The notes under the pieces are model-generated. The model searched no databases. It saw only the letters and a list, made by a program, of their open reading frames with translations, and had not been told where the DNA came from. Both the position numbers and the translations under genes were made by a program. Positions 1,382 through 13,895 of a stretch of DNA of 13,895 nucleotides are shown in pieces. The DNA comes from Eubacterium sp. (GTDB taxonomy: Bacteria; Bacillota; Clostridia; Lachnospirales; Lachnospiraceae): assembly GCA_021442545.1 (NCBI GenBank), contig JABUSX010000390.1, positions 1 through 13,895 of the forward strand, given 5' to 3'. How positions within the stretch are numbered: the first letter of the stretch is position 1; each line of letters opens with the position of its first letter.

Positions 1382-2554
1382 ATGGCCCAGAGAATCTGCA
1401 TTCCGGATCACGAGTACAAAGAGCGTGTTGCTAAGTGTGCAAAAATCCTTCAGCGTGAAGGTCTTGATGCACTGATCGTCAACGGCAATGAAGCCGATTA
1501 TGCAAACCCCCGCTATTTTTCAGGATACTGGCCTCTTTTTGAGCGCGCAGGTGTTGCGATCTCCGCAGGGGGCGATGCCGCACTGATGGTCGGTCCGGAA
1601 TCGGCCGAATTCGGCAAAGACCGGAACAAACTGGACAAGGTTTTTGTTCTGAAGGCCTATCGTGAGGGTGCAGATCCTTCTTATCCGGAACTGAATGCGG
1701 ATACTTTCCAGGATGTTTTCAAGGCGATCGGCGTGACCGGAAAGAAGCTCCGCATCGGTATCGCTTCTTTCCTTGATACATCGGTCACAATCTATAACGA
1801 GATCCGTGATGCTTTTCCGGAAGCGGAACTGATCAACGCCGGTGACATCATGGTGGAACTCCGCCAGATCAAATCCGAAAACGAGCTGGCCTGCCTGCGC
1901 GAAGGCTACCGTCTTGCCGAGCTGGCTACCCAGGAAGTCATAAAAGAGATCCGTCCCGGCATGACCGAACTGCAGATGGTCGGCGTCGCGCAGCGTGTCA
2001 TCTATGAAAACGGCGCGGAATACGAAGGTCTTCCGATGTATGTTTTCTCCGAAGCCTCCACACGCCATGCCATCTCCCGTTCCGGGTACAGAGAATTCAA
2101 AAAAGGGGATATCGTCCAGCTGAATCTTTCCGCAAAGATCGACGGCTATTCCGCATCGATCGGCTATCCGATCTGTCTCGGAAAGCTGGAAGGTGAACGC
2201 CGCGAGATCGTGCAGTTCTGCCGTCAGGCACACGCCTGGACCATGGATCAGGTAAAAGCAGGCGTGATCGCAGGCGATATCGCTTCCGAATTCTACAAAT
2301 ATTACGTCGACAATGGTTTTGCCGGAAACTTTGTCTATGGCCCGCTTCATTCTACCGGCATCATCGAAGTGGAGGCACCCTGGGCAGAATCCACATCCCG
2401 CTATCCTCTTCAGCCGAATATGACCTATCAGGTCGATACCTTTATCTCCTGTCCCACCTTCGGTGTGCGCTGGGAAAAAGGCATCGTCGTTACAGAAGAC
2501 GGCTGCGACCTGCTGAGTCCGGAAATCCCCGAAGAATGTCCGGAAGTCTTCTGA
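1382..2554 (+). CDS. Creatinase-like M24 (pita-bread fold) protein lacking the standard metal ligands
   Basis: 390 residues, the usual size for creatinase/aminopeptidase P-type M24 proteins: N-terminal creatinase domain (about 10-155) and C-terminal M24 domain (about 165-380). The C-terminal half aligns by eye with family landmarks: KGDIVQLNLSAKIDGY (241-256), PLHSTGIIEVEAPW (321-334), YQVDTF (349-354) and GVRWEKGIVVTEDG (361-374). Metallopeptidases use D, D, H, E, E; here the first Asp is Asn248, the second Ser259, the His is kept (His323), the first Glu is Asp352 and the last Glu is kept (Glu365). Loss of both Asp ligands argues against a dinuclear peptidase and favours the metal-free, creatinase-type mechanism (creatine to sarcosine plus urea). 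His229 lies near the position of the creatinase catalytic His. The next gene is creatininase-family, which strengthens this reading. Ribosome site AGGAAGGAG is 6 nt from the ATG. Exact substrate unproven. Confidence 0.82.
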   Translation: MAQRICIPDHEYKERVAKCAKILQREGLDALIVNGNEADYANPRYFSGYWPLFERAGVAISAGGDAALMVGPESAEFGKDRNKLDKVFVLKAYREGADPSYPELNADTFQDVFKAIGVTGKKLRIGIASFLDTSVTIYNEIRDAFPEAELINAGDIMVELRQIKSENELACLREGYRLAELATQEVIKEIRPGMTELQMVGVAQRVIYENGAEYEGLPMYVFSEASTRHAISRSGYREFKKGDIVQLNLSAKIDGYSASIGYPICLGKLEGERREIVQFCRQAHAWTMDQVKAGVIAGDIASEFYKYYVDNGFAGNFVYGPLHSTGIIEVEAPWAESTSRYPLQPNMTYQVDTFISCPTFGVRWEKGIVVTEDGCDLLSPEIPEECPEVF

Positions 2555-2583
2555 CAAGACAAAACATCTGATCCCGTATATCT

Positions 2584-2661
2584 CTGTTTTCTGTCCCGGA
2601 TCTCAGAATACCGGTTCCGTGTCTTTCCCTCTGATCCGGGTACGGAAAACAGATCTTTTTA
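2584..2661 (+). terminator. Long hairpin with U-tract between M24 and creatininase genes (attenuator-like)
   Basis: Arms 2584-2602 (CTGTTTTCTGTCCCGGATC) and 2633-2652 pair over 19 bp with one G-U and one bulged base. The loop is 30 nt, and ATCTTTTTAT follows. This has intrinsic terminator form, but the next ORF starts only 23 nt after the U-tract with no clear promoter between. It therefore probably acts as a partial terminator or attenuator that lowers expression of downstream genes relative to the M24 gene. Confidence 0.7.
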
Positions 2662-2683
2662 TATAAGAAAAGAGGATAATTCC

Positions 2684-3421
2684 ATGCAGCTGATCGATAT
2701 GTTTTACGACGAGATCGAATCTGCCGCAAAGCGGCGCGTACCCTTTATCATCCCGATCGGCACGATCGAATACCACGCCCGTCATATGTCCTGCGGAACC
2801 GATACCATGGTCATTACGGGTGTCCTGCGTGAGCTGGAAAAAGAAAAAGAGATCGTCGTATGTCCCCCGATCTGGTACGGGGTCGCTTCCTATGCGGTCT
2901 GCAGTCCGCGGCCGGGGCATATTACGGTCGATGAAGATGTTTACGCACAGTATATTTATGAGATCGTGAAATCCATGATCCTGGGAGGCATTCAGAATCT
3001 TTATCTGATCCCGCATCACCAGACGGAAGCCGGCGGTCTGATGCCCATGACCATCGCCTGCCACAAAGCCGCAAAAAAGGTCGCCATGGAATACATGGAA
3101 GAGACCCGCGGCATGGGCTGGTGGGGAAGCAATGATTTTGCCGACTATTACGAAAAACTCGGCTCGGACGGAGATCCTTTCTCTTTCGTAAAGGTGATCC
3201 CCCTGATCGGACCGGAAGCTCAGATCAAAAACGGAGGCTTCGATCACGCCGGACAGTATGAAACCTCTCTGATGATGGGAACCTGGCCGGATCATGTCGA
3301 CCTTTCCCGCTGCAGCCGCAACACGGAATGGTTTGCGCAGAGCGCGAAGGATGCATCCGAAGAGCTCGGACGCTTCAAAGTCGGAAACACCCTTGAATGG
3401 CTGCGGGAGATGATAAAATAG
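2684..3421 (+). CDS. Creatininase-family amidohydrolase
   Basis: 245 residues, the usual length for creatinine amidohydrolase/MftE-like proteins. Seen: PIGTIEYHARHMSCGTD (24-40), matching the family's 'P.GS.E.HG.HLP..TD' with the Glu, His and Asp metal ligands kept; LIPHHQTEAGG, in the place of the usual 'NGHGGN' His loop but diverged; and HAGQYETS, matching 'HAGE.ETS' with Gln for the first Glu. Family members open cyclic amides (creatinine to creatine) or act on related C-N or C-C bonds: MftE is a peptidase, and IolN hydrolyses a keto-inositol. The diverged LIPHHQTEAGG loop argues for a substrate other than creatinine. Ribosome site AGAGGA (2671-2676) is 7 nt upstream. Immediate linkage to a creatinase-like M24 gene suggests they act in sequence on one compound. 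Family firm; substrate open. Confidence 0.85.
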   Translation: MQLIDMFYDEIESAAKRRVPFIIPIGTIEYHARHMSCGTDTMVITGVLRELEKEKEIVVCPPIWYGVASYAVCSPRPGHITVDEDVYAQYIYEIVKSMILGGIQNLYLIPHHQTEAGGLMPMTIACHKAAKKVAMEYMEETRGMGWWGSNDFADYYEKLGSDGDPFSFVKVIPLIGPEAQIKNGGFDHAGQYETSLMMGTWPDHVDLSRCSRNTEWFAQSAKDASEELGRFKVGNTLEWLREMIK

Positions 3422-3570
3422 CACAGGCCGCTCCGATATCCGGTCTCCCGATGTTCAGTATTTTTTCTGCGGAATGCTCACCTTTGTTCCTTCAGCTTAT
3501 CTGTCCGCAGTATATTTTCACTTCGACTTCGATACGGTTTCCGTACAGCATATTTCCAAGGAGGTCTTTC

Positions 3571-4578
3571 ATGAAGATCAACATGTATGACTGGGTCGAT
3601 TCCCTGATTGCCGCGGAAAAGAAGCCGCCCTTTCCGGTTCTGACTTTCCCTGCGATCCAGAAACTCGGCATCACGATCAATGACCTGGTCCGTTCCAGTG
3701 ACAACCAGCTGAAAATGATGCGGATCATCGCCGAAGAAACACCCATGCCGGCAGTTGCCGGTATGATGGATCTTTCCGTAGAAGCAGAAGCTTTCGGCTC
3801 CACTGTCCGATTCAGTGATAACGAAGTCCCCACCGTGATCGGACACATCATGGAAGAAGAGGAAGACGCCGACGCTCTGGAAATCCCGGAGATCGGCGCA
3901 GGGCGCACACAGATCTACATCGATGCCATCGGAAAAGCCGTGGAAGCTTTTCCGGACAAACCCGTCTTTGCCGGATGCATCGGACCCTACTCTCTGGCAG
4001 GCCGCCTTCTGGACGTCAATGAAGTCATGGTTCTCAGTCTTGAAGAACCGGATATGGTCCATACCGTTCTGGAAAAAGTCAGCACCTTCCTGATCAGCTA
4101 CATGAAGGCCTACAAAGCCGTCGGGGCAAACGGTGTTCTTATGGCGGAGCCGCTGGCCGGCCTTCTCGGCTCCGGCATGGCACAGGAATTTTCTTCCGAC
4201 TACGTGAAAAAGATCATCGATGCCGTTCAGGACGAAAACTTCCTTGTCATATATCACAACTGCGGCAACACGGCGATCCGGACCGTGGACACGATCATCA
4301 GTAACGGTGCACGCATCTTCCACTTCGGCAATGCGATCGATATGGCCGAAATGATGGCACACATTCCGGAAAACTGCATCGGAATGGGAAACCTGGATCC
4401 TGCCGGTGAGTTCCGGAACGGAACACCGGAGTCGATCCGGGAAAAAACCGGGAAACTGATGGAAGCATGCGGCGGATTCAGAAATTTTATTCCCTCATCC
4501 GGATGCGACATTCCACTCGATGCCAGCTGGGAAAACATCAGTGCCTTCTTCTCGGCAGTCGAAAACCATTATTCATAA
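3571..4578 (+). CDS. UroD-fold cobalamin methyltransferase (MtaA/MtbA-like)
   Basis: 335 residues from the ATG at 3571, chosen because AAGGAGGT (3558-3565) sits 5 nt upstream; the frame stays open to 3397 but that would add an implausible N-terminus. The uroporphyrinogen-decarboxylase fold is recognised from VFAGCIGPYSLAGRL (132-146), GANGVLMAEPLAGLL (185-199) and VIYHNCGNT (226-234). His229-x-Cys231 plus Cys312 (in SSGCDIP) match the H-x-C...C zinc site of MtaA/MtbA-type methyltransferases, which bind a thiol or methyl acceptor through zinc. True UroD enzymes lack this site, so a haem role is unlikely. The corrinoid protein follows 86 nt later. It could be the MT2 that takes the methyl from the corrinoid, or a substrate-specific MT1; chloromethane methyltransferase CmuA is a known UroD-like MT1. 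Confidence 0.88.
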   Translation: MKINMYDWVDSLIAAEKKPPFPVLTFPAIQKLGITINDLVRSSDNQLKMMRIIAEETPMPAVAGMMDLSVEAEAFGSTVRFSDNEVPTVIGHIMEEEEDADALEIPEIGAGRTQIYIDAIGKAVEAFPDKPVFAGCIGPYSLAGRLLDVNEVMVLSLEEPDMVHTVLEKVSTFLISYMKAYKAVGANGVLMAEPLAGLLGSGMAQEFSSDYVKKIIDAVQDENFLVIYHNCGNTAIRTVDTIISNGARIFHFGNAIDMAEMMAHIPENCIGMGNLDPAGEFRNGTPESIREKTGKLMEACGGFRNFIPSSGCDIPLDASWENISAFFSAVENHYS

Positions 4579-4664
4579 ACATTGACATTATCGAATGAAA
4601 AACAAGGGCATAATCCCTGACGTTTCAGCATAAAAACTTTAATTAAACGAGGAGGAACAGAACC

Positions 4665-5300
4665 ATGAGTGAGCTGCTGAAGGAGATTTCCGATAAAGTG
4701 ATTGCCGGCAAATCCAAGGTCGTTGTCGGCCTTGTTCAGAATGCGATCGACGCCGGAGAAGCTCCGGGAGACGTCCTGAATGCCATGATCAGCGCAATGG
4801 ACATCATCGGACAGAAATTCCATAACAACGAAGTCTTCGTTCCGGAAATGCTGGTGTCGGCCCGGGCCATGAAAAAAGGCGTCGCGGTTCTGAAACCATA
4901 TATGTCCGATAATGACGGACCCAGACTCGGCAAAGTGATCATCGGAACCGTCGAAGGTGATCTCCATGACATCGGAAAAAATCTGGTCTCCATGATGATC
5001 GAAAGCGCCGGCTTTGAGGTGATCGATCTCGGTGTCGACGTTCCCAAAGAAAAATTCATGGAAGCCTATGAGGCAAATCCCGACACAAAGATCATCTGCC
5101 TCTCCGCTCTTCTGACGACAACGATGGGAGCCATGAAAGACACGGTCGCTCTTTTCAATGGGCAGCCCTTCCGCAGCAAGATCCGCGTTATGATCGGGGG
5201 TGCTCCGATCACCGAAAAATTTGCGGAAGAAATCGGTGCCGATGCCTACACGGAAGATGCCGCTTCCGCCGCGACTATGGCCAAGTCTCTGGTTGCATAG
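4665..5300 (+). CDS. Methyltransferase corrinoid protein (MtaC/MtbC/MttC-like)
   Basis: 211 residues, the usual size of two-domain corrinoid shuttle proteins. Residues about 1-85 form the helical cap (B12-binding_2), with NEVFVPEMLVSARAM typical of the helices over the cofactor. Residues 88-210 form the Rossmann-like cobalamin domain with EGDLHDIGKN: Asp99-x-His101-x-x-Gly104, where His101 is the lower axial cobalt ligand. SALLTTTM (147-154) and IGGAPI (177-182) line the nucleotide tail. The protein carries the methyl group as methyl-cob(III)alamin between a substrate methyltransferase and an acceptor methyltransferase. Ribosome site GAGGAGG is 9 nt before the ATG. It ends the first gene block and is the likely client of the activase at 1-717. 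Assignment is firm; the methyl donor is unknown. Confidence 0.94.
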   Translation: MSELLKEISDKVIAGKSKVVVGLVQNAIDAGEAPGDVLNAMISAMDIIGQKFHNNEVFVPEMLVSARAMKKGVAVLKPYMSDNDGPRLGKVIIGTVEGDLHDIGKNLVSMMIESAGFEVIDLGVDVPKEKFMEAYEANPDTKIICLSALLTTTMGAMKDTVALFNGQPFRSKIRVMIGGAPITEKFAEEIGADAYTEDAASAATMAKSLVA

Positions 5301-5507
5301 GAACAACATCCGGCATCCAGCCGGTCCCTGCCGTGCAGAGTGCCTCCGGCCGGCCTGCAGATTTCCGGTTTTCACGGAAAGTGTCTGTCGTGCAGATATT
5401 TTTGACTCTGTCAAAAACTTATGATAATAAAGAAAATTTTTTTGTAATTTTCAACAAAATCATTTTCGATATTATTAAATTGTTATGTATTTTAACGAAA
5501 TATAACG

Positions 5508-5536
5508 TTTCCGTCATAAAAAAAGTGTGATATAAT
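5508..5536 (+). promoter_or_regulatory. Extended -10 promoter of the ABC importer operon
   Basis: TGA directly precedes a perfect TATAAT (5531-5536), giving an extended -10 element. The -35 position, 17 nt upstream, reads TTTCCG (5508-5513), a poor match, as is common with extended -10 promoters. Transcription would start near 5543 and give a leader of about 58 nt before the binding-protein ATG at 5601. Confidence 0.6.
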
Positions 5537-5548
5537 CATAAAATATTA

Positions 5549-5564
5549 GTGAACTCGTTGTCAC
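5549..5564. promoter_or_regulatory. Possible operator dyad just downstream of the importer start site
   Basis: GTGAACTCGTTGTCAC is an imperfect 16-bp palindrome with GTGA/TCAC outer arms, placed about +7 to +22 of the predicted transcript. A second TGTGA at 5526-5530 also pairs with TCACA at 5561-5565 across the -10. The form is compatible with a LacI/GntR-type repressor site, but no regulator is visible and chance is not excluded. Confidence 0.28.
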
Positions 5565-5600
5565 ACACTGTACCTTAATATGTTTCAAGGGAGGATAAAC

Positions 5601-6617
5601 ATGAAAAAGAGAGTTTTAGCTGCAGTAATGAGCGTATCCATGGTTGCAACAGCCTTCTCCGGATTCGGAGCAACGGCAGTCTTCGCTGCCGACGATGCGA
5701 AGGACGCAGTTCCGAAGATCGCTTTCGTTCCGAAGGTTGTCGGACAGGCATGGTGGGATTATGTTCAGAGCGGCGTTGAAGCCTGGGCAGAAGAGACCGG
5801 CATCGACGTGATCTATCAGGGACCGACAGAAGTTGACGCTGCTGCTCAGGTTCAGATCATGACAGACCTTGTCAACCAGGGCATTGACGTTCTCTGCTTC
5901 TCACCGAATGACCCGGATGCCTGCGAAGCCATCTGCAAACAGGCCATGGATCAGGGCATCATCGTCATCGCGACCGAAGCTTCCGGTATGACGAATGTTG
6001 ACTACGACGTTGAAGCATTTGATGAAGCCGGCATGGGCAGCTTCCTGATGGATCAGCTTGCAGCTCAGATGGACGAAGAAGGCGAATACATCACCATGGT
6101 TGGTTCCATGACGATGGAATCTCAGAACAACTGGGCTGACGCCGGTGTTGCACGCCAGGAAGAAGCTTATCCGAATATGGAACTCGTTCCGGACGCACGT
6201 GTCGCGGATGATTCCGATGCCGAAAAAGCATATCAGCTGACCAAAGAGCTCATCACCAAATATCCGGATCTGAAGGGTATCCTCGGAACCGGTTCCTTCG
6301 ACGCACCGGGATGTGCCCGCGCAATCGAAGAGCTTGGCCTGAGCGGACAGGTCTTTGCCATCTCTGTCGCTCTTCCGTCAGAAGTCAAGGATTATCTGAA
6401 GAACGGCACACTGCAGTCCGTCGGTCTGTGGGATCCGGCCATCTCTGCCAAAGTCATGCTGAACACGGCTGTCAAGCTGTTCGCCGGCGATACGGTCGAG
6501 ACCGGTTCTGACCTCGGAGAAGAGGGTTACGAAAGCGTCATCGTTGACGGTACACTTATCACCGGCAACGGCGCGATCGCTATTACAGCCGAAAACGTTG
6601 ATCAGTTCACGTTCTGA
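5601..6617 (+). CDS. Sugar-type ABC substrate-binding protein (LsrB/RhaS/RbsB-like, Peripla_BP_4)
   Basis: 338 residues from ATG 5601 (AAGGGAGG 6 nt upstream; an in-frame ATG at 5580 lacks such a site). Signal peptide: MKKR, a hydrophobic run, then AVFA|ADD, with predicted cleavage after residue 29. No lipobox Cys exists, although FSGFG (19-23) looks like a lipobox with Phe for Cys. The mature part is a type-I periplasmic binding fold: KIAFVPKVVG, GPTEVDAAAQVQIMTDLVNQ, VLCFSPNDPDACEAICKQA, and VGLWDPAISAKVMLNTA. These segments follow the LsrB/RhaS group closely. The AI-2-contacting residues of LsrB I remember are mostly changed here (Lys kept at 45; Asp to Glu, Asp to Ser, Pro to Thr, Ala to Ser), so the ligand is probably not AI-2. 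As first gene of the importer operon, followed by a stabilising hairpin, it should be the most abundant product. Ligand unknown; sugar or sugar-like is most likely. Confidence 0.9.
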   Translation: MKKRVLAAVMSVSMVATAFSGFGATAVFAADDAKDAVPKIAFVPKVVGQAWWDYVQSGVEAWAEETGIDVIYQGPTEVDAAAQVQIMTDLVNQGIDVLCFSPNDPDACEAICKQAMDQGIIVIATEASGMTNVDYDVEAFDEAGMGSFLMDQLAAQMDEEGEYITMVGSMTMESQNNWADAGVARQEEAYPNMELVPDARVADDSDAEKAYQLTKELITKYPDLKGILGTGSFDAPGCARAIEELGLSGQVFAISVALPSEVKDYLKNGTLQSVGLWDPAISAKVMLNTAVKLFAGDTVETGSDLGEEGYESVIVDGTLITGNGAIAITAENVDQFTF

Positions 6618-6633
6618 TCAGATTCATTCACAG

Positions 6634-6663
6634 CAGCTTTAAAGCCGCAGATCTTTAGAGCTG
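6634..6663 (+). other. 3'-end mRNA hairpin after the binding-protein gene
   Basis: CAGCTTTAAAG (6634-6644) pairs with CTTTAGAGCTG (6653-6663) over 11 bp with one G-U and an 8-nt loop, starting 16 nt after the stop. No U-tract follows. Such stems typically block 3' exonucleases and keep binding-protein mRNA more abundant than that of the other ABC genes. Confidence 0.6.
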
Positions 6664-6681
6664 TACCTGTCGAATTTCATG

Positions 6682-6730
6682 GGCGGAGGTGCCGACCGGC
6701 ATACAGGAGGTCTCACCTCCGCCTTTGTTT
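6682..6730 (+). terminator. Attenuator-type hairpin between binding protein and ATPase genes
   Basis: GGCGGAGGTG (6682-6691) is an exact reverse complement of CACCTCCGCC (6714-6723), with a 22-nt loop, followed by TTTGTTT. A second GGAGGT inside the loop (6706-6711) can pair instead with ACCTCC (6715-6720) across a 3-nt CTC loop. The two stems exclude each other because they share the same 3' arm. The U-rich tail is interrupted, so only partial termination is expected, lowering ATPase and permease output relative to the binding protein. Confidence 0.55.
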
Positions 6731-6767
6731 GAACCCACAGATCATCCCAGAGCAAGGAGTGTTCCAT

Positions 6768-8255
6768 ATGGCTGAATATTTACTTGAGATGTCGGGAATT
6801 TGCAAATCATTTGCCGGCGTCCACGCACTGGATCATGTAGACCTGAAAGTCCGGCCCGGTGCCGTTATCTGCCTGGCCGGTGAAAACGGCTGCGGAAAAT
6901 CCACGTTGGTCAAGATCATCTCCGGCGTCTATACGAAAGACGAAGGGGAAGTAACCTTTGACGGGCAGAAGATCGATCATATCACCCCGGCAGAAGCAAC
7001 TAAGCTCGGCATCCAGGTCATCTATCAGGATCTTTCCATCTTCCCGAATCTTACGGTCATGGAAAATCTGGCTATCAACTCGGAAATTACAGCAGGACGC
7101 AGGATCGTCAACAAGAAACGATGGGAAGAGACAGCAAAAGAAGCCATCTCCAAGATCGGCTATCACATTGATCTCCACGCAAAAATGGGTGATCTTCCCG
7201 TCGCAGACAAACAGCTCGTTGCCATCTGCCGCGCACTGCTTTTTAATGCAAAGCTTATAATCATGGACGAGCCGACCACGGCACTGACCAAAAAAGAAGT
7301 TGATTCTCTTTTCAGGACAGTCCGCCAGCTTCGTGACTCAGGAATCGCCATCATGTTCATCAGCCATAAGACGGAAGAGATCTTCGAGATCTCTGATGAT
7401 GTCTGCATCATGCGGAACGGAAAAAATGTATATGGCGGCGAAACAAAGGATCTGACGACCGAAGACTTTATGTATTACATGACCGGACGTCATCTGACCA
7501 ATTCGAAGTTCGTTCCCGAAAACCTGAGCAAGGATCCCGTTCTCACCGTTGAAAATCTTTCCCTGACGGGAGCCTATCAGAATATCTCCTTCGATCTGCG
7601 TAAGGGTGAGATTCTGGGAATCACCGGTCTGCTTGGTTCCGGGCGCACGGAACTCGCTCTCTCGCTTTTCGGCCTTATGCCTCCTGAAAGCGGAACCATT
7701 CGTCTGAACGGCAAGGAAGCTCATATCAAAACTCCGATGCAGGCACAGAAGCTGAAAATCGGTTATGTTCCCGAAGACCGGCTGACGGAAGGTCTCTGTC
7801 TGATGCAGCCGATCGCGGATAATATTACCCTCTCCTCTCTGGACCGGCTGTCCGGAAAACTCGGCACCCTCGATCATAAGAAGATCTACGAGGAGGCCGA
7901 TATCTGGGTCGACAAGTTTTCCATTGCCACCGATGATTCTCATAAAGCCGCTTCCACTCTGTCCGGCGGAAACCAGCAGAAGATCGTTCTGGCAAAATGG
8001 CTCAGCAATGACCTCGATGTTCTGATCCTGAACGGTCCCACCGTCGGTGTCGACGTAGGAGCCAAACAGGATATCCACACACTTGTTCACCAGCTGGCTA
8101 ATGAAGAAGGTCTGGCCGTTATCATCATCTCCGATGACCTGCAGGAAGTCGTGGCAAACTGCAGCAGGGTTATCGTAATGAAGGACGGGGTCATCTCCGG
8201 AGAGATCAGCGGCGATGATATCAACGAGGAAGTCATCCTCGGAATCATACGATAA
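6768..8255 (+). CDS. Sugar-type ABC importer ATPase with two NBDs (RbsA/MglA/LsrA-like)
   Basis: 495 residues, typical of the carbohydrate-uptake-2 family, where one chain carries two nucleotide-binding domains. NBD1: Walker A GENGCGKST (38-46), Q-loop YQD, Walker B LIIMDEP (163-169), His200 of the H-loop; its signature is degenerate (LPVADKQ). NBD2: degenerate P-loop GLLGSGRTE (287-295), intact signature LSGGNQQK (398-405), and a Walker B region reading LILNGPT where relatives have LILDEPT, so both the metal-binding Asp and the catalytic Glu are lost (Asn422, Gly423). One composite site (NBD1 Walker motifs plus NBD2 signature) should hydrolyse ATP; the other looks dead. The ATG at 6768 is chosen for AAGGAGT 7 nt upstream over an in-frame TTG at 6729. 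It energises import through the two permeases that follow. Confidence 0.93.
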   Translation: MAEYLLEMSGICKSFAGVHALDHVDLKVRPGAVICLAGENGCGKSTLVKIISGVYTKDEGEVTFDGQKIDHITPAEATKLGIQVIYQDLSIFPNLTVMENLAINSEITAGRRIVNKKRWEETAKEAISKIGYHIDLHAKMGDLPVADKQLVAICRALLFNAKLIIMDEPTTALTKKEVDSLFRTVRQLRDSGIAIMFISHKTEEIFEISDDVCIMRNGKNVYGGETKDLTTEDFMYYMTGRHLTNSKFVPENLSKDPVLTVENLSLTGAYQNISFDLRKGEILGITGLLGSGRTELALSLFGLMPPESGTIRLNGKEAHIKTPMQAQKLKIGYVPEDRLTEGLCLMQPIADNITLSSLDRLSGKLGTLDHKKIYEEADIWVDKFSIATDDSHKAASTLSGGNQQKIVLAKWLSNDLDVLILNGPTVGVDVGAKQDIHTLVHQLANEEGLAVIIISDDLQEVVANCSRVIVMKDGVISGEISGDDINEEVILGIIR

Positions 8256-8266
8256 GGAGGCCCATG

Positions 8267-9265
8267 ATGAAAAACAACACTCTCAAACGGCTGACGGGCA
8301 GAACCGAATTCTGGATCTTTCTTGTTCTTATCGTGCTCTGTATCATTATTCAGTGTGTATCCGGATCTCTCCTGTCTCCGACAACGATTGTAACCATTCT
8401 CCGTGACCTCATCGTAGACGGCATGTTCTGTCTTGTCTGCCTCCTGATCATGGTCTCCGGCGGATTCGACCTCTCCTTCCCGGCCATCGCGGCGCTGGCC
8501 TACTCGGCTTCCACCACGATCTGCCTGAACAACGGATGGTGCAATGAAAATCCGCTTGCAGGTTTTCTGATCGCCATCGCGATCGGCGCCGGTCTTGGTA
8601 TGCTGAACGGCTGGATCATTTCTTCCTTCAAGCTCAATACCATGATCGTTACCCTCGGTACCCAGACCTTATTCCTCGGTATCAGCATGGGACTCCTTCA
8701 GATGAAGGAGATCACCTCCACGCTTCCCCAGGGCTTCAAAAATCTGGGTGTTTCCTCACTCTTTACGGTTACAAATGAACGTGGACTCACCTCTACCATG
8801 TCGACCCTCTTCATTGCCTTCGTAGCTCTTGCAGTTGTCTGTTCCTTCATTCTGAACAAGACCATGTTCGGGCGTGCACTCTACGCGATCGGCGGCAACG
8901 AAGTTTCTGCAGAACGTGCCGGTTACAATGTAAGAAAAACGAAGTTCATCCTCTACACCGTAGCGGGTGCTCTCTCAGGCTTCATCGGCATGGTTCGTGT
9001 CTGTCTGGCCAGTCAGTCGATTCCGAAGGCACTTGTCGGAAAGGAAATGACGATCATACCGGCCGTCATTCTCGGCGGTGCAAGTATCTTCGGCGGCGAA
9101 GGTACGGTGTTCGGTACCGTCTGTGCGATCTCCCTGATCACGGTGTTCAAAGACAACATGATCTCCCTGGGAATCGATTCCTACTGGCAGGATTTCTTCA
9201 ATGGTCTGATCATTCTGGTCGGTATCACGATATCCGCTGTACAGGCAAAACGCCGCTTGAAATAA
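8267..9265 (+). CDS. ABC importer permease 1 (RbsC/LsrC-like, BPD_transp_2)
   Basis: 332 residues (333 from the adjacent ATG at 8264). The ribosome site AAGGAGG (8254-8260) overlaps the ATPase stop; it is 6 nt from the ATG at 8267 and only 3 nt from 8264, so I prefer 8267. The protein is very hydrophobic, with about nine membrane segments. Family landmarks: VSGGFDLSFPAIAALA, the cytoplasmic ATPase-contact loop GRALYAIGGNEVSAERAG, and GGASIFGGEGTVFGT near the C-terminus. It ends in a basic KRRLK tail, consistent with a cytoplasmic C-terminus. Pairing of two different permeases (as in LsrC/LsrD and RhaP/RhaQ), rather than a RbsC homodimer, fits the LsrB/RhaS-type binding protein. Confidence 0.93.
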   Translation: MKNNTLKRLTGRTEFWIFLVLIVLCIIIQCVSGSLLSPTTIVTILRDLIVDGMFCLVCLLIMVSGGFDLSFPAIAALAYSASTTICLNNGWCNENPLAGFLIAIAIGAGLGMLNGWIISSFKLNTMIVTLGTQTLFLGISMGLLQMKEITSTLPQGFKNLGVSSLFTVTNERGLTSTMSTLFIAFVALAVVCSFILNKTMFGRALYAIGGNEVSAERAGYNVRKTKFILYTVAGALSGFIGMVRVCLASQSIPKALVGKEMTIIPAVILGGASIFGGEGTVFGTVCAISLITVFKDNMISLGIDSYWQDFFNGLIILVGITISAVQAKRRLK

Positions 9266-9278
9266 GAGGAGGAACGTT

Positions 9279-10301
9279 ATGAAAAAATATTTACAGAAAA
9301 ATCAATATACACGTATGCTCCTCATCATGCTGGCCGTCGTCCTGATCTTCTTCACGATCACAAAGGGAAGTATCCTGTGGACGGGCAACATGTGGAGCGG
9401 CATGATGATGCAGTTCCCGGAATTCGGTCTCATCACACTTGGCATGATGTTTACCTTCATCTGCGGCCAGATGGACCTTTCCGTGATCGCTCTCGGTGAC
9501 TTTGCCGCCATTATTGCCTGCAAGTTCATCATTGCCAACAGCACGGAAGAAATGGGAAACGGACAGCTTGTAGGCATCTTCATCATCGGTATTCTGATCG
9601 CCGTAATCATCGCGATCTGCGGAGGTCTCGTCAACGGATTCCTGGTCACGGGACTCGACATACCGCCTGTCATGGCTACGATTGCCATGCAGCTTGTCTG
9701 GCAGGGGCTCTCGATCGCCCTGACAAGAGGTGACGCCGTCACGGGTCTTCCCTTATTGTATACGGAGATCGGGCACAGCAAGATCCTGGGCTTCATCCCG
9801 TTCCCGCTTCTTATCTTCATCATCGGTCTGCTCATTGCCGCATTCCTCGTGAAAAAGACGACTTACGGCGAAAAGCTGTACATGATCGGAACGAATCAGA
9901 AAGCCTGTGTATTCTCTGCGATCAATGTCAAGTTTACCATCATCATCACCTACTGCCTCTGCAGCGTTTATTCGGTAATAGGCTGCATGCTGATGGTCAA
10001 TACGCTCGGCTCCGCAAAAGCCGACTACGGCACATCCTATCTGATGCGCTGTATCCTGATCCTCGTTCTTGCCGGCATCCTGCCGGATGGCGGTTACGGC
10101 AATATCTGGGACAGCGTGCTGGCGATCATCATCATCCAGATCATCGCTTCCGGCGTCAATATGTTCAAAGAGCTGAACACCTACTGGTCCAGTCTGATCT
10201 GGGGCGCCATGCTGATCGTTGTCCTGATCCTGAGCACGAGAGTAACAGGAAACGCTCCTAAAAAGAAAAAAGCTGATGTAACAGCAAAGGCAGGATCCTG
10301 A
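9279..10301 (+). CDS. ABC importer permease 2 (RbsC/LsrD-like, BPD_transp_2)
   Basis: 340 residues, starting 13 nt after permease 1 with AGAGGAGG 6 nt before the ATG. It is strongly hydrophobic with about nine membrane segments. Landmarks: FICGQMDLSVIALGDFAA (the family's GG.DLSVG..... region), ICGGLVNGFLV, and a GEKLYMIGTNQKACVFSAI coupling loop more diverged than in permease 1 (Thr-Asn-Gln for Gly-Asn-Glu). The C-terminal tail is lysine-rich (APKKKKADV). It should form a heterodimer with permease 1 and couple to the double-NBD ATPase. The stop codon lies in the loop of the hairpin at 10289-10313. Confidence 0.92.
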   Translation: MKKYLQKNQYTRMLLIMLAVVLIFFTITKGSILWTGNMWSGMMMQFPEFGLITLGMMFTFICGQMDLSVIALGDFAAIIACKFIIANSTEEMGNGQLVGIFIIGILIAVIIAICGGLVNGFLVTGLDIPPVMATIAMQLVWQGLSIALTRGDAVTGLPLLYTEIGHSKILGFIPFPLLIFIIGLLIAAFLVKKTTYGEKLYMIGTNQKACVFSAINVKFTIIITYCLCSVYSVIGCMLMVNTLGSAKADYGTSYLMRCILILVLAGILPDGGYGNIWDSVLAIIIIQIIASGVNMFKELNTYWSSLIWGAMLIVVLILSTRVTGNAPKKKKADVTAKAGS

Positions 10302-10319
10302 CCGGATCCTGCCCCTTTG
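10285..10319 (+). terminator. Strong hairpin enclosing the permease 2 stop codon
   Basis: GGCAGGATCC (10289-10298) and GGATCCTGCC (10304-10313) pair perfectly with a 5-nt loop, TGACC, that contains the TGA stop (10299-10301). CAAAG/CTTTG extends the stem past a 2-nt bulge. Only a short T-run follows, so full termination is doubtful. It more likely attenuates transcription or protects the importer mRNA before the second methyltransferase gene. Confidence 0.5.
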
Positions 10320-10362
10320 AAACACTTCATACGCTTTATTTTACGATCCTGAGGTATCCGAT

Positions 10363-11409
10363 ATGAACAGTATTGAACGTTTTTATGCAACTGTGGAACG
10401 TAAGCCCGTCGACCGTCCTGCCTGCTGGCTCGGCGACCCGACCCTCGATGCCGTTCCGGCTCTCTGCGAATTTTACGGTGTCCCGGACATCAACGAACTG
10501 AAACGCGTCTGCGGTGATGACTTCTATGCCGTGGAGATCCCCTACAAATCCCCGACCTGTTCCGCGATCTTTGCCGCCTTCGACTGGTATATGGGCGGCA
10601 GCAACGTCGATACGGAACATCGCACCCTTACGGCAGACGCCTGCTTCACCGAATGCGAAGACCTCGATGACGTGAAAGCCGTGAATTTCCCGTGGCCGGA
10701 TCCGGAACTTTACATCGATCCGGAACGCTGCAGAAAACTCGTGGATGAGGCTCCGAAGGATAAGACCATTATGGGCATGCTCTGGGCCGCTCATTTCCAG
10801 GATGTCTGTGCCGCTTTCGGCATGGAGACCTGCCTGATGAACATGATCTCCGAACCGGAAATGGTCCACTATGTCGATGATCATATTGTCGCCTTCTATC
10901 TGAAAGCCATGGAGATCTTCCTGGAAGCCACAAAAGGCAAAGTTCATGCCATGCTGATCGGCGACGATGTCGGTTCACAGCGCGGTCTGATCATCAGCCC
11001 GAAACTGGTAGAAGAATTTGTTATCCCTGGTGCAAAAAAACTGATCGACCTCGCACACAGCTACGGTGTAAAGATCGTCTACCACTCCTGCGGGTCGATC
11101 GTGGATGCGATCCCGCTTCTGATCGACGCAGGCGTCGATGTCATTCATCCGATCCAGGCTAAGGCCGTCGGTATGGATCCCGCCAACCTGAAGGCAAAAT
11201 TTGACGGAAAGGTCTCCTTCTGCGGCGGTGTGGATACACAGGATCTTCTTCCGAACGGAACACCGGAACAGGTTCAGGACAAGGTCAGAGAGCTTCGCGA
11301 ATTCTTCCCGACCGGTCTCATCATTTCGCCGAGCCATGAAGGCCTGCAGGCAGACGTACCGCCCCGCAACATCAAGGCCCTGTTCGACGAAGCTACAAAG
11401 ATCTATTAA
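10363..11409 (+). CDS. UroD-fold methyltransferase, second paralogue
   Basis: 348 residues. The uroporphyrinogen-decarboxylase-like barrel is seen from MLIGDDVGSQRGLIISP (197-213), IVYHSCGSIVDAIP (238-251), VIHPIQ (260-265), SFCGGVDTQDLLPNGTPE (285-302) and IISPSHEGLQADVPPRN (320-336). These belong to the UroD-like group common in Clostridia with corrinoid proteins rather than to haem-biosynthetic HemE. Candidate metal ligands are His241 and Cys243, with Cys287 or His325 as the third; the layout differs from the H-x-C...SGCD form of the first paralogue, so the two should differ in role. Its place after the importer suggests it is the substrate-specific methyltransferase loading the corrinoid protein, with the first paralogue passing the methyl on; this is inference. 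The ribosome site is modest (GAGG, 8 nt before the ATG). Confidence 0.86.
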   Translation: MNSIERFYATVERKPVDRPACWLGDPTLDAVPALCEFYGVPDINELKRVCGDDFYAVEIPYKSPTCSAIFAAFDWYMGGSNVDTEHRTLTADACFTECEDLDDVKAVNFPWPDPELYIDPERCRKLVDEAPKDKTIMGMLWAAHFQDVCAAFGMETCLMNMISEPEMVHYVDDHIVAFYLKAMEIFLEATKGKVHAMLIGDDVGSQRGLIISPKLVEEFVIPGAKKLIDLAHSYGVKIVYHSCGSIVDAIPLLIDAGVDVIHPIQAKAVGMDPANLKAKFDGKVSFCGGVDTQDLLPNGTPEQVQDKVRELREFFPTGLIISPSHEGLQADVPPRNIKALFDEATKIY

Positions 11410-11414
11410 TCAAA

Positions 11415-11445
11415 ATCCTCTCCAGCGGAGGATACAGTATTTTTT
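11415..11445 (+). terminator. Weak hairpin with T-run after the second UroD-fold gene
   Basis: ATCCTC (11415-11420) pairs with GAGGAT (11428-11433) over 6 bp with a 7-nt loop; a run of six T begins 6 nt later (11440-11445). The stem is short and the gap to the T-run is long, so termination would be partial. It sits at the start of the palindromic array. Confidence 0.3.
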
Positions 11446-11709
11446 CCGGAGACCGCAGCGTTCTTCTGCAGAAGCTGCGGTATTCTTTTCCGGAAACGGC
11501 AGTTTATTTCTTCAGAAACAGCGGAGTTTTTCCGATAACAACGGTTTTCTTCTGAAGAACCTGCGTCTTTCATCTGCAGAAACAGCAGTATTTTTTCCGG
11601 AAACGGCTGCTTCCTTCTGCAGAAACGGTGATTATTATTTTGGAAACATCTGTTTTCTTCTGCAGAATCAGCCGTATTTTTTCCGGAAACGGCTGTTGCA
11701 ATCAGAACA
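11434..11709. repeat. Array of about 13 palindromic units, period 21-22 bp
   Basis: The gap between the methyltransferase and mutarotase genes is filled by a degenerate tandem array. Each unit has a palindromic core, TTCCGGAA or TTCTGCAGAA, followed by AC and a GC-containing link. The GGAAAC/AGAAAC anchors start at 11448, 11470, 11492, 11514, 11534, 11555, 11578, 11599, 11621, 11642, 11664, 11685 and 11704, with intervals of 19-23, mostly 21-22. CCGG-type and CTGCAG-type cores alternate, so the higher unit is about 43 bp; the alternation slips once near units 6-7. Some units extend to longer stems, e.g. CAGCCG...CGGCTG at 11669-11695. Two helical turns per unit would place the cores on one DNA face; as RNA it would be a row of hairpins. 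Confidence 0.8.
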
Positions 11710-11743
11710 GACCATTTTTTATAATAAAGGAGGCTCGAAAATT

Positions 11744-12070
11744 ATGATCAAACGCTTCGGACAGGTCATCAAAGTTTCACCGGAAGGAAAGGAACAGTAC
11801 ATTGCCTATCATGCGAATCCTCTTCCCGGCGTAAACGAAATGATCAAAGAATGTCATCTGAAGAACTACTCCATCTTCATTCGGGGGGATCTTATGTTCT
11901 CCTATTTCGAATACGACGGGGACGATTTCGATGCAGATATGGAAAAAATGGCGGCCGACCCGGCGACCCAGCATTGGTGGAGCCTTGTGAAACCTCTGAT
12001 GTGCCCTCTTGAGGACCGCGCAGAAGGCGAATTCTGGTCGGACATGACGGAAATTTATCATTTGGACTAA
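11744..12070 (+). CDS. rhaM: L-rhamnose mutarotase family protein (RhaM-like)
   Basis: 108 residues, close to E. coli RhaM (104). Seen: MIKRFGQVIKVSPEGKEQYI, YHANPLPGVNEMIK, NYSIFIRGDLMFSYFEY, QHWWSLVKPLM, and an EIYHLD end. These match the family's order: a QV.P....EY..RHN segment, NYSI, LF.Y.E, WW, and 'FHLD' end. His23 corresponds to the catalytic His of RhaM (His22). The family interconverts alpha and beta anomers of L-rhamnose and related pyranoses. AAAGGAGG (11726-11733) lies 10 nt upstream and supports this start, although the frame stays open far upstream through the repeat array. No other rhamnose gene (isomerase, kinase, aldolase) is seen in the window, so the true substrate may be another pyranose, perhaps a methylated one handled by the neighbouring methyltransferases. 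Confidence 0.86.
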   Translation: MIKRFGQVIKVSPEGKEQYIAYHANPLPGVNEMIKECHLKNYSIFIRGDLMFSYFEYDGDDFDADMEKMAADPATQHWWSLVKPLMCPLEDRAEGEFWSDMTEIYHLD

Positions 12071-12075
12071 GAGAT

Positions 12076-13335
12076 ATGAGCGATATTTACGAACTGATAC
12101 GTCAGGGATCCTTTTCCTGCGAATGCGGAAAAACACATTCGACACTTGTTGAACACATCATCATTGAGCACGGCGCCGTCCGGGCACTTCCGGATCTGCT
12201 CAGGGAATACGGAAGCAGCAAGCCCTTCCTTCTCTCCGGAAGCACGACCTTCAAGGCAGCCGGAGAGCCCGTCACAAGGGTTCTGGATGAAGCGGGCATT
12301 ACCTGCAGCCGCTACATCTTCCCGGAACCCTACGTGCAGCCGACCGAAAAATCCGTCGGATCTGCCCTGATGCACTTCGATTTCAGCTGTGACGGCATCG
12401 TCGCCGTCGGATCCGGGGTGATCAATGACATAGCCAAGCTCCTGGCGGCAATGTCAGGGCTTCCATATATCGTTGTCGGCACGGCGCCATCCATGGACGG
12501 CTATGCCTCTTCCACTTCTTCGATGGAAGTTGACGGTCTGAAGGTATCGATCAACAGCACCTGTGCGCGCGCGATCATCGGAGATCTCGATATCCTCTGC
12601 AATGCGCCCATGCATATGATCCATTCCGGGATCGGTGACATGATCGCCAAGTACATCAGCATCTGCGAATGGCGTTACAGCAGGATCCTGACCGATGAGT
12701 ACTACTGCCCGACGATCGCCGCGATCGTGGAAGAAGGACTGCAGCGCTGCGTGGATTCGGCCGACGGTCTCCTGACCCGCGATCCGGAAGCCATCAGAAG
12801 CGTCATGGAAGGTATGGTGCTGACAGGACTGGCCATGCAGTATACCGGCATCTCACGGCCCGCCTCCGGAATGGAGCATTACTTCTCCCATATCTGGGAC
12901 ATGCGGTCCCTTGCCTTCGGCACAAAAGCAGACCTGCACGGAATCCAGTGCGGCATCGGCACGCTGTTCAGCCTGAAGGCCTATGAATATATCAAAACGA
13001 TCCGCCCGGACAAAGAAAAAGCACTTCAATATGCGGCGCAGTTCTCGCTTGAAGACTGGAACCGGCAGCTCCGGGCACATATCGGTCCCGGTGCCGAAGC
13101 CATGATCGAAAACGAGAAAAAAGAGCAGAAATATAACAAGGAAGAGCATGCCCGCCGCCTGGATATGATCATTGAAAACTGGGATGAGATTATGGCGGTC
13201 ATCAATACGCTCCCGGATTACGAAACCGTGTACGGTCTTCTGAAACGCATCGGAGCTCCCGTCTCCGTCGCGGAGATCGGCATTCCGGAAGAAGAGGTGG
13301 GCATCACTCTGAAAATGAGCAAAGGAATACTATAG
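12076..13335 (+). CDS. sn-glycerol-1-phosphate dehydrogenase family protein (AraM/EgsA-like)
   Basis: 419 residues, the length of bacterial AraM-type proteins. Seen: an N-terminal CECGKTH (15-21) common in this family, VGSGVINDIAKLLA (111-124) of the NAD(P)-binding GGGS/GSG..D.AK loop, GTAPSMDGYAS (135-145), and the metal ligands Asp188 (SGIGDMIAKY), His268 (GMEHYFSHIW) and His288 (ADLHGIQCG). The known reaction is dihydroxyacetone phosphate to sn-glycerol-1-phosphate with NAD(P)H in the iron-containing alcohol dehydrogenase superfamily. It begins 5 nt after the mutarotase stop with no strong ribosome site, suggesting translational coupling. In this setting it may act on another polyol, hydroxy-ketone or sugar oxidation step rather than on lipid precursors; this is inference. 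No terminator follows before the AT-rich tail begins. Confidence 0.88.
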   Translation: MSDIYELIRQGSFSCECGKTHSTLVEHIIIEHGAVRALPDLLREYGSSKPFLLSGSTTFKAAGEPVTRVLDEAGITCSRYIFPEPYVQPTEKSVGSALMHFDFSCDGIVAVGSGVINDIAKLLAAMSGLPYIVVGTAPSMDGYASSTSSMEVDGLKVSINSTCARAIIGDLDILCNAPMHMIHSGIGDMIAKYISICEWRYSRILTDEYYCPTIAAIVEEGLQRCVDSADGLLTRDPEAIRSVMEGMVLTGLAMQYTGISRPASGMEHYFSHIWDMRSLAFGTKADLHGIQCGIGTLFSLKAYEYIKTIRPDKEKALQYAAQFSLEDWNRQLRAHIGPGAEAMIENEKKEQKYNKEEHARRLDMIIENWDEIMAVINTLPDYETVYGLLKRIGAPVSVAEIGIPEEEVGITLKMSKGIL

Positions 13336-13380
13336 ATCAGAATAATACGAAAAGAAAACCCATAGAACATATTAATAAAA
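13336..13380. other. Composition boundary / probable join between two genomes
   Basis: GC falls abruptly right after the TAG at 13333-13335 and stays near 19-23% to the end. The last bacterial gene has no terminator, and ribosome-site-like sequences stop. A GATC lies at 13335-13338, a possible ligation point if restriction fragments were used in library making. The exact breakpoint cannot be fixed by eye. Confidence 0.5.
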
Positions 13381-13895
13381 GATGTCAACCAGAAAATCAA
13401 AGAATAATAATTAATAATGATGAATTAAAGAAATCAGGAAAAATTCCTTCAGTAACAGCTTCTTCAACAGATGGAGCACATTCATCAACCTTTAAAGAAA
13501 TTACTTTTTCTAATCCTTTAATTAATGGTATAAAAACCAAAAACTTTACTCATGCAAATAAACCTTCAATTTTAACTACAGGTAGAAATAAAAATAAAAA
13601 TGAGGAAGAAAAAAATTCTAAAAAAGAAAATTTTGAATTATTAGAAATAATTCATAATAACAATTCAAATCTTAATACTTTTTCTAATAAGCCAATAACT
13701 AAAAAACAAAAAAAAGAAATAAATCCTATAAATAATAATAAATTTGAAACTAGCATAAAAAAAAGTAATAATAAGAATAATAAAATTAATATGCAAAATA
13801 CTATTAAAAGATTAAAACCAAAACCAAAAGAAATAAAAGAATCTTTATTGATTAAAAATCATTATATAAATATATTAAATGATAATATTATTCCA
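13338..13895 (+). CDS. Open, Asn/Lys/Ile/Ser-rich frame in ~19% GC DNA, partial; probably foreign
   Basis: A frame with no stop runs about 186 codons to the window end, in DNA where A and T are about 80% and TAA or TAG should appear every ten or so codons; the other frames are full of stops. Translation gives low-complexity text rich in Asn, Lys, Ile, Ser and Glu (for example KITFSNPL-like and NKNKNEEEK-like segments; later KRLKPKPKEIKESL), with AAT, AAA, ATA, TTA and GAA codons dominating. I recognise no domain. Composition and codon use are unlike every gene before 13335. Such Asn-rich low-complexity proteins at about 20% GC are typical of AT-rich eukaryotes such as anaerobic gut fungi (Neocallimastigomycota) or some protists; a mollicute-like bacterium is possible. 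The true start is not visible, and the left limit is arbitrary because the frame is open across the junction. Confidence 0.5.

Follow-up and report, generated by a model that had tools for sequence, protein, structure and literature searches.

A Candidate Corrinoid-Dependent Sugar O-Demethylation Gene Set Beside a Separate M24–Creatininase Module in a Lachnospiraceae Genome

Introduction

Most described cases of corrinoid-dependent methyl transfer involve methylated aromatic compounds, methylamines, or methyl halides. The O-demethylases of acetogens combine a UroD-fold methyltransferase with a small corrinoid protein and a RACo-type activase. The same three components are encoded in the stretch of DNA analyzed here (the window), which spans all 13.9 kb of contig C8 from a Eubacterium sp. 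(Lachnospiraceae) draft genome of 1.96 Mb in 480 contigs. In contrast to the acetogen systems, the window also encodes a sugar importer and a mutarotase-family protein, fucose genes appear in its relatives, and there is no aromatic context. We tentatively propose, at slightly less than even confidence, that two sugar-linked modules stand together in the window, and that module 1 would perform the corrinoid-dependent O-demethylation of an O-methyl-6-deoxyhexose, with 2-O-methyl-L-fucose as the leading candidate.

Two further described systems resemble parts of this locus. L-Fucose catabolism (FucI, FucU, and a kinase) and the GH29 fucosidases share, in some genomes, a gene run or neighborhood with UROD2, the second UroD-fold protein of the window; we know of no methyltransferase step in the established L-fucose pathway. 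Creatininase and creatinase belong to the same families or folds as the two proteins of module 2 and are likewise encoded by adjacent genes. In contrast, module 2 scores far below the creatininase cutoff, differs in its residues, and is linked to sugar genes.

The main text of a preprint by Kountz and Balskus (PMC10418091) names OdmB and VdmB, aryl methyl ether O-demethylases of acetogens, as UroD-superfamily enzymes. It proposes a role in methyl-sulfur or methyl-selenium metabolism for mlp clusters, defined by at least two Mlps, a corrinoid protein, and Ram, all in the same direction and at most 2 kb apart, with no tetrahydrofolate methylase within 20 kb. The words "sugar" and "creatin" are absent from that main text. 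The window has the UROD1 type of methyltransferase, the corrinoid protein, and RACo in common with these clusters, and differs from them by its additional sugar importer and second UroD protein. A clear MtaA-like assignment holds for UROD1 alone; UROD2 and the RACo fragment lie 5 and 3.9 kb, respectively, from the corrinoid gene, and the 20 kb requirement exceeds the length of the contig. Sugar-sensor genes of the ASRT family (PF07100) neighbor monosaccharide ATP-binding cassette (ABC) transporters, according to the main text of De Souza et al. (2009, PMC2739507), in which "creatin" and "M24" do not appear; relatives of module 2 similarly combine an ASRT-like gene with such transporters. A search of the open-licence literature, which lacks most subscription papers, listed no account of corrinoid-dependent demethylation of sugars or fucose.

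Fermenters that use methylated plant-wall sugars need an anaerobic route for methyl ether removal. If the proposal is correct, corrinoid methyl transfer would reach carbohydrates, the large UROD2-type family, whose 3408 members at a threshold of E 1e-20 are filed under uroporphyrinogen decarboxylase, would gain a function, and gut fermentation would have an additional source of one-carbon units. The conserved ASRT–M24–creatininase module is a second, directly testable puzzle.

Co-occurrence of UROD2 with a Corrinoid Protein

Gene content, synteny, co-occurrence, active-site motifs, and predicted folds were observed directly. UROD2 (10363–11409; URO-D 81.0 bits), the proposed substrate-specific corrinoid methyltransferase (MT1), occurs together with the MtgC/MtbC-like corrinoid protein (4665–5300; PF02310 85.1 and PF02607 66.7 bits). 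The latter was present in all 22 UROD2 genomes checked, our own included, versus 16 of 99 genomes lacking UROD2. The first set of 41 genomes, comprising those of 36 of our 80 named loci, picked partly for their neighbors, and five G genomes, with L047 left out, contained it in 9/9 UROD2 genomes (own included) and in 8/32 others (Fisher p 7e-5). In a second, disjoint set, the corresponding counts were 13/13 and 8/67 (Fisher p 6e-10); the family genomes were sampled one per genus. The corrinoid protein was called at E 1e-50 or better, and UROD2 orthologues at no less than 72% in the first set and 55% in the second.

The UROD2 genomes of the second set were all eight family genomes outside the first set, four class genomes at 55–61%, and G657; eight class genomes with UROD2-type proteins at 35–41% and G090 (42%, partial) were omitted. 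Its 67 controls were those of G001–G078 without UROD2, minus G006, G011, G015, G016, G018, G020, G023, G038, and G063, of which G015 and G038 had belonged to the first set. The remaining 43 of the 80 named loci were screened for UROD2 alone.

Within 9 kb of UROD2 in the 22 genomes, we found RhaM in 14, sugar importer genes (substrate-binding protein or permease) in 16, the corrinoid gene in 7, RACo in 4 (the partial RACo of the window, 9.6 kb away, falls outside this count), and UROD1 in 3. The creatininase-family gene was within this distance in 4 genomes, M24 in 3, GH29 in 3, FucI in 2, and FucU in 1, and G098, G158, and G236 (3/22) had none of these partners. The UROD2–corrinoid gene spacing in G586 is 16 bp. 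The initial annotation had pictured the import of a methylated, sugar-like compound coupled to corrinoid methyl transfer, and the counts for the corrinoid protein (22/22), RhaM (14/22), and importer (16/22) agree with that part. An early view of the corrinoid genes as a mere add-on was dropped for UROD2, since the genome-level co-occurrence reversed it.

In G617 (L243:14840–17110), a LacI-type regulator with a C-terminal solute-binding domain (PF01547) is encoded between UROD2 and the corrinoid gene. Open reading frames (ORFs) of like size adjoin UROD2 in G013 (762 aa) and G026 (751 aa, LacI match).

UROD1 (3571–4578), an MtaA/MtbA-like (Mlp-like) UroD-fold protein and the proposed second methyltransferase, has both the H-x-C...C motif and the UroD domain (PF01208 170 bits; NF004889 129.4 bits, cutoff 244). 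This zinc motif, H229xC231...C312, is kept in 15/15 sequences. The H-x-C of UROD2 is kept in 20/20 rows (18 distinct proteins), and a comparison of UROD2 with PDB sequences gave no match at E 0.01.

In the proposed mechanism, the binding protein, ATPase, and two permeases would import an O-methylated 6-deoxyhexose, such as the 2-O-methyl-L-fucose of pectin rhamnogalacturonan II (RG-II), and the RhaM protein would equilibrate its anomers. UROD2 would then transfer the O-methyl group to Co(I) of the corrinoid protein, UROD1 would hand the methyl from methyl-Co(III) to a thiol or another one-carbon acceptor, and the RACo activase would reduce inactive Co(II). The demethylated sugar would feed an L-fucose isomerase pathway whose genes are located away from the window. 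All of the reactions are inferred, as are the identity of the substrate, the direction in which the methyl group moves, and the roles of UROD1 and UROD2.

Fucose Link and Alternative Substrates

The link to fucose comes from the relatives of UROD2. In G586, a single strand encodes a PHP-domain protein, a rhamnulokinase-like kinase, an SDR protein, UROD1, FucI (964.9 bits, over the cutoff of 775), a fucose-mutarotase-like FucU, the corrinoid protein, UROD2, RhaM, a binding protein, an ATPase, and two permeases. G605 has a divergent FucI 5.5 kb from UROD2, with the ATPase, permeases, and creatininase-family gene between them and RhaM in the cluster. A GH29 gene (PF01120 291.6 bits) lies 29 bp upstream of UROD2 in G093, and this genome shares with G516, from a different family, the order binding protein, carbohydrate-esterase-like protein, GH29, UROD2.

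FucI was found in 11 of the 13 genomes with a UROD2-type protein versus 114 of 378 others in a class sample of 391 genomes (p 1e-4); the UROD2 and FucI screens appear to cover the same 391 genomes, judging from the sample size and handles, genomes without a match not all being listed. UROD2-type proteins were counted here at E 1e-60 or better (35–100% identity, own genome included). Our own genome carries FucI on contig C77, beside a xylulokinase-like kinase.

According to the text of PMC10154630, chain B of RG-II contains 2-O-methyl-L-fucose, which the GH139 enzyme BT0984 releases. Given the FucI, FucU, and GH29 neighbors, the FucI enrichment, and this occurrence in RG-II, we propose 2-O-methyl-L-fucose as the substrate; O-methyl-fucose itself is what we infer from these observations. 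The fucose genes in five UROD2 neighborhoods (one of them weak) support the sugar-like methylated compound pictured by the initial annotation, whose suggested ligands included O-methyl fucose and rhamnose.

The cassette of binding protein, esterase-like protein, GH29, and UROD2 was seen in two bacterial families (L305:3682–9347 and L176:8031–13656) and is a candidate for action on an acylated, methylated fucoside. X677, beside the fucose genes of G586, was considered as an RG-II fucosidase and rejected, as its relatives include P-loop/helicase-type proteins. A GH20-like protein of 702 aa gave just weak PDB matches, and a neighbor protein of 718 aa gave no PDB match at E 0.1.

The best-surviving alternative, which we regard as rather unlikely, keeps corrinoid-dependent demethylation by UROD2 but assigns it another substrate: methyl-rhamnose, 2-O-methyl-xylose, a methyl-uronic acid, a methyl-inositol, or a methyl glycoside. 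The best-scoring named model for the binding protein is RhaS (168.9 bits, under its cutoff of 342), the window encodes RhaM and not FucU as its mutarotase-like protein, the kinase of G586 resembles rhamnulokinase (445.7 bits, cutoff 527.95), and most UROD2 loci have no adjoining fucose gene. Against these stand the FucI, FucU, or GH29 neighbors at five loci and the genome-level FucI enrichment.

Several observations weigh against 2-O-methyl-L-fucose demethylation as proposed. FucI or GH29 is near UROD2 in just 5 of 22 genomes, G291 being counted through a 26% match 5.2 kb away, and both G236 and G291 have UROD2 (55–57%) without a FucI match. FucI enzymes also isomerize D-arabinose. The kinase next to FucI in our own genome is xylulokinase-like (377.7 bits, cutoff 380), and the GH29 protein matches exo-alpha-L-galactosidase chains as well as alpha-L-fucosidase chains. 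On the enzyme side, UROD2 lacks the third Cys ligand, with Ser-His-Glu there in 19/20 rows (position matched by eye); substrate-specific UroD-fold members may bind zinc in another way. No corrinoid gene is present within 9 kb of UROD2 in 15 of the 22 genomes, some with short contigs and others plainly encoding the corrinoid protein elsewhere. The corrinoid protein, as its presence in 16 of 99 genomes without UROD2 indicates, also serves other systems. The M24–creatininase module has no step in the proposed pathway.

The dispersed corrinoid genes bear on a second alternative, which we consider improbable: the corrinoid protein, UROD1, and RACo could be an mlp-type methyl-sulfur/-selenium salvage set located here by chance, and UROD2 a corrinoid-independent sugar enzyme. 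UROD1, the corrinoid protein, and RACo indeed occur without an adjoining UROD2 in L168, L169, and contig C19 of G611 (with a DUF2284 protein), and most loci with UROD2, RhaM, and the importer lack a corrinoid gene in the 9 kb range. However, the split between UROD2 genomes (22/22) and others (16/99) in corrinoid protein content and the 16 bp spacing in G586 favor a functional connection.

Still less probable, in our judgment, is an accidental mosaic of M24–creatininase, UROD1–corrinoid, importer–UROD2–RhaM, and dehydrogenase units with no common pathway. The modules are separable, their co-occurrence did not reach significance in the family sample, and the contig end looks chimeric. In contrast, the corrinoid gene is within 9 kb of UROD2 in six other genomes, and three other genomes (L055/G589, L107/G611, and L085/G605) have UROD2, RhaM, the importer, and the creatininase-family gene in a cluster, two of them with the M24 gene there as well. 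The initial annotation would have been contradicted had the two gene blocks never been found together, and these three clusters show them together.

Two RhaM paralogues occur per cluster in L107 (1262–4749) and L085 (11620–12361), one adjoining UROD2 and one nearer the ASRT-linked type. Such pairs perhaps reflect two sugars or two steps.

The M24–Creatininase Module

A sugar-sensor protein and an AraC-like regulator frequently accompany the M24 and creatininase-family genes, which constitute a module of their own. The products of these two genes are a creatinase-like M24/creatinase-N protein with a degraded metal site (1382–2554; PF00557 94.8 and PF01321 43.6 bits) and a creatininase-family hydrolase (2684–3421; PF02633 111.1 bits). 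The corrinoid gene is within 6 kb of module 2 in only 1 of 80 loci. That locus (L066:5917–8597), from a Lachnospiraceae genome with UROD2 on a different contig, has a co-directional corrinoid gene (52%) 0.8 kb downstream of the M24 gene.

Creatinase is the nearest fold to the M24 protein among solved structures. The five metal ligands of the M24 family (Asp, Asp, His, Glu, Glu) are not kept, their positions being Asn248, Ser/Ala259, His323, Asp352, and Glu365 in 49/49 sequences (register from the alignment). The subfamily scores of this protein are below every curated cutoff shown, including PepQ (71.9, cutoff 630) and the ectoine hydrolase DoeA (51.2, cutoff 613). The metal and catalytic residues of creatininase are E34, H36, D45, H120, E122, H178, and E183. 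Their counterparts E29, H31, D40, H112, H188, and E193 in the creatininase-family protein are invariant in 81/81. Thr114 replaces Glu122 of creatininase in 81/81 in the register of one alignment, and the 42% relative L007 has Tyr.

Creatinine catabolism by this pair appears unlikely and was rejected on family scores, differing residues, and the sugar-type context. The full route of the initial annotation, from creatinine through creatine to sarcosine followed by N-demethylation by the corrinoid enzymes, is highly improbable: the creatininase-family protein reaches just 68.6 bits with TIGR04448 (curated cutoff 235) and has Thr114 where creatininase has Glu, and the pair associates with RhaM, sugar importers, and a sugar-sensor family, for the most part at loci that lack a neighboring corrinoid gene.

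Module 2 might act on the same sugar-derived compound as module 1 or a related one, and hydrolysis is our guess. A bolder version of the proposal, which we find doubtful, is that UROD2 would found a family of corrinoid-dependent sugar O-demethylases, by which gut anaerobes would import O-methylated deoxysugars from plant pectin (2-O-methyl-L-fucose), load the methyl group onto cobalt, and pass the resulting fucose to FucI, and that the ASRT–M24–creatininase module would handle a sugar-linked amide, ureide, or diketo compound by a further route not yet described. A literature search on a creatininase-type diketo-inositol hydrolase returned nothing useful.

The two modules are separable. In a 200-genome sample of the window's own family, 10 genomes had UROD2 at a threshold of E 1e-150, 5 had the creatininase-family gene at a threshold of E 1e-60, and 2 had both; with our own genome excluded, the co-occurrence was not significant (1/9 vs 3/190, p 0.17). 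UROD2 at 60% or above was present in 8/79 named genomes with the creatininase-family gene versus 1/390 other class genomes, and FucI in 34/42 creatininase-gene genomes when compared with the class sample, the groups being drawn differently in both comparisons.

The unit of AraC-like, ASRT-like, M24, and creatininase-family genes recurs across many gut genomes (L042–L121), with a ureidoglycolate-lyase-like gene in some loci. Plasmid searches for the M24 and creatininase relatives gave only 24–28% identity at the best listed places.

Gene Content and Transcription Signals of the Window

All of the families named by the initial annotation were recovered from the ORF list and domain scans, co-directional on the + strand, with the corrinoid activase upstream present only as a C-terminal part (1–717; PF14574 233.7 bits) because the contig begins within the RACo gene. 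This fragment scored 147.8 bits with the AcsV model, far under the cutoff of 800.

The four-gene importer (5580–10301) consists of a sugar-type substrate-binding protein (5580–6617; PF13407 196.1 bits), whose closest solved chain is 5bra (219.8 bits), a sugar-type double ABC ATPase (6768–8255; PF00005 in two stretches, ABC_tran 178.1 bits), and permeases 1 (8264–9265; 104.5 bits) and 2 (9279–10301; 83.3 bits), both PF02653 (BPD_transp_2). The sugar mutarotase-like protein of the RhaM family (11744–12070; PF05336 90 bits) is followed by an AraM/G1PDH-like dehydrogenase (12076–13335; PF13685 107.9 bits).

Every Pfam match in the window exceeds Pfam's own cutoffs, whereas subfamily scores are far below the curated NCBIfam cutoffs. 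The RhaM protein, queried without its first three residues, scored 43.5 bits with the L-rhamnose mutarotase model TIGR02625 (cutoff 99.6), the G1PDH-like protein 179.3 bits with NF002022 (cutoff 413), and the corrinoid protein 195.1 with NF047996 (cutoff 370) and 188.8 with TIGR02370 (cutoff 215.3). Thus, the names "creatinase", "creatininase", "RhaM", and "G1PDH" denote families only and do not assign a function.

The dehydrogenase, which the initial annotation had counted as a pathway member, was rejected as a core part, as it is not a conserved partner, and is probably an accessory of this genome. In a search of nine other UROD2 genomes, a relative above 50% identity was found only in G611, on another contig. 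A 30% relative adjoins the creatininase-family gene in L092.

The whole gene set may form one operon, although it contains intergenic gaps of 279 bp upstream of the binding protein gene, 150 bp on its downstream side, and 334 bp following UROD2. Terminator-like sites were near chance in the window (14 found, 11.7 expected), those on the + strand including 6706–6720 in the gap after the binding protein and 11415 and 11466 after UROD2. Promoter-like sites were above chance (22 found, 12.0 expected), with + strand sites preceding the M24 gene (1282 and 1296), the binding protein gene (5448), and RhaM (11696). An Rfam scan gave no match at the gathering score.

Imperfect tandem repeats of 43–44 bp (11437–11697, without strand; arrays at 11437–11534 and 11568–11697, Tandem Repeats Finder) lie within the 334 bp that separate UROD2 from RhaM; in 11 of 13 relatives with RhaM near UROD2, this spacing is 0–42 bp. 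Just past the last gene (13336–13895), the GC content falls from 0.51 to 0.20, and one reading frame rich in Asn and Lys runs without a stop for 188 codons up to the end of the contig. These last 560 bp are probably a chimeric contig end of AT-rich DNA, perhaps of eukaryotic origin; a phage search with this tail gave no match. Between RACo and the M24 gene, a 48-codon ORF (909–1055) stands alone, with a ribosome-binding-like sequence upstream, and by eye it may resemble a Nif11 leader.

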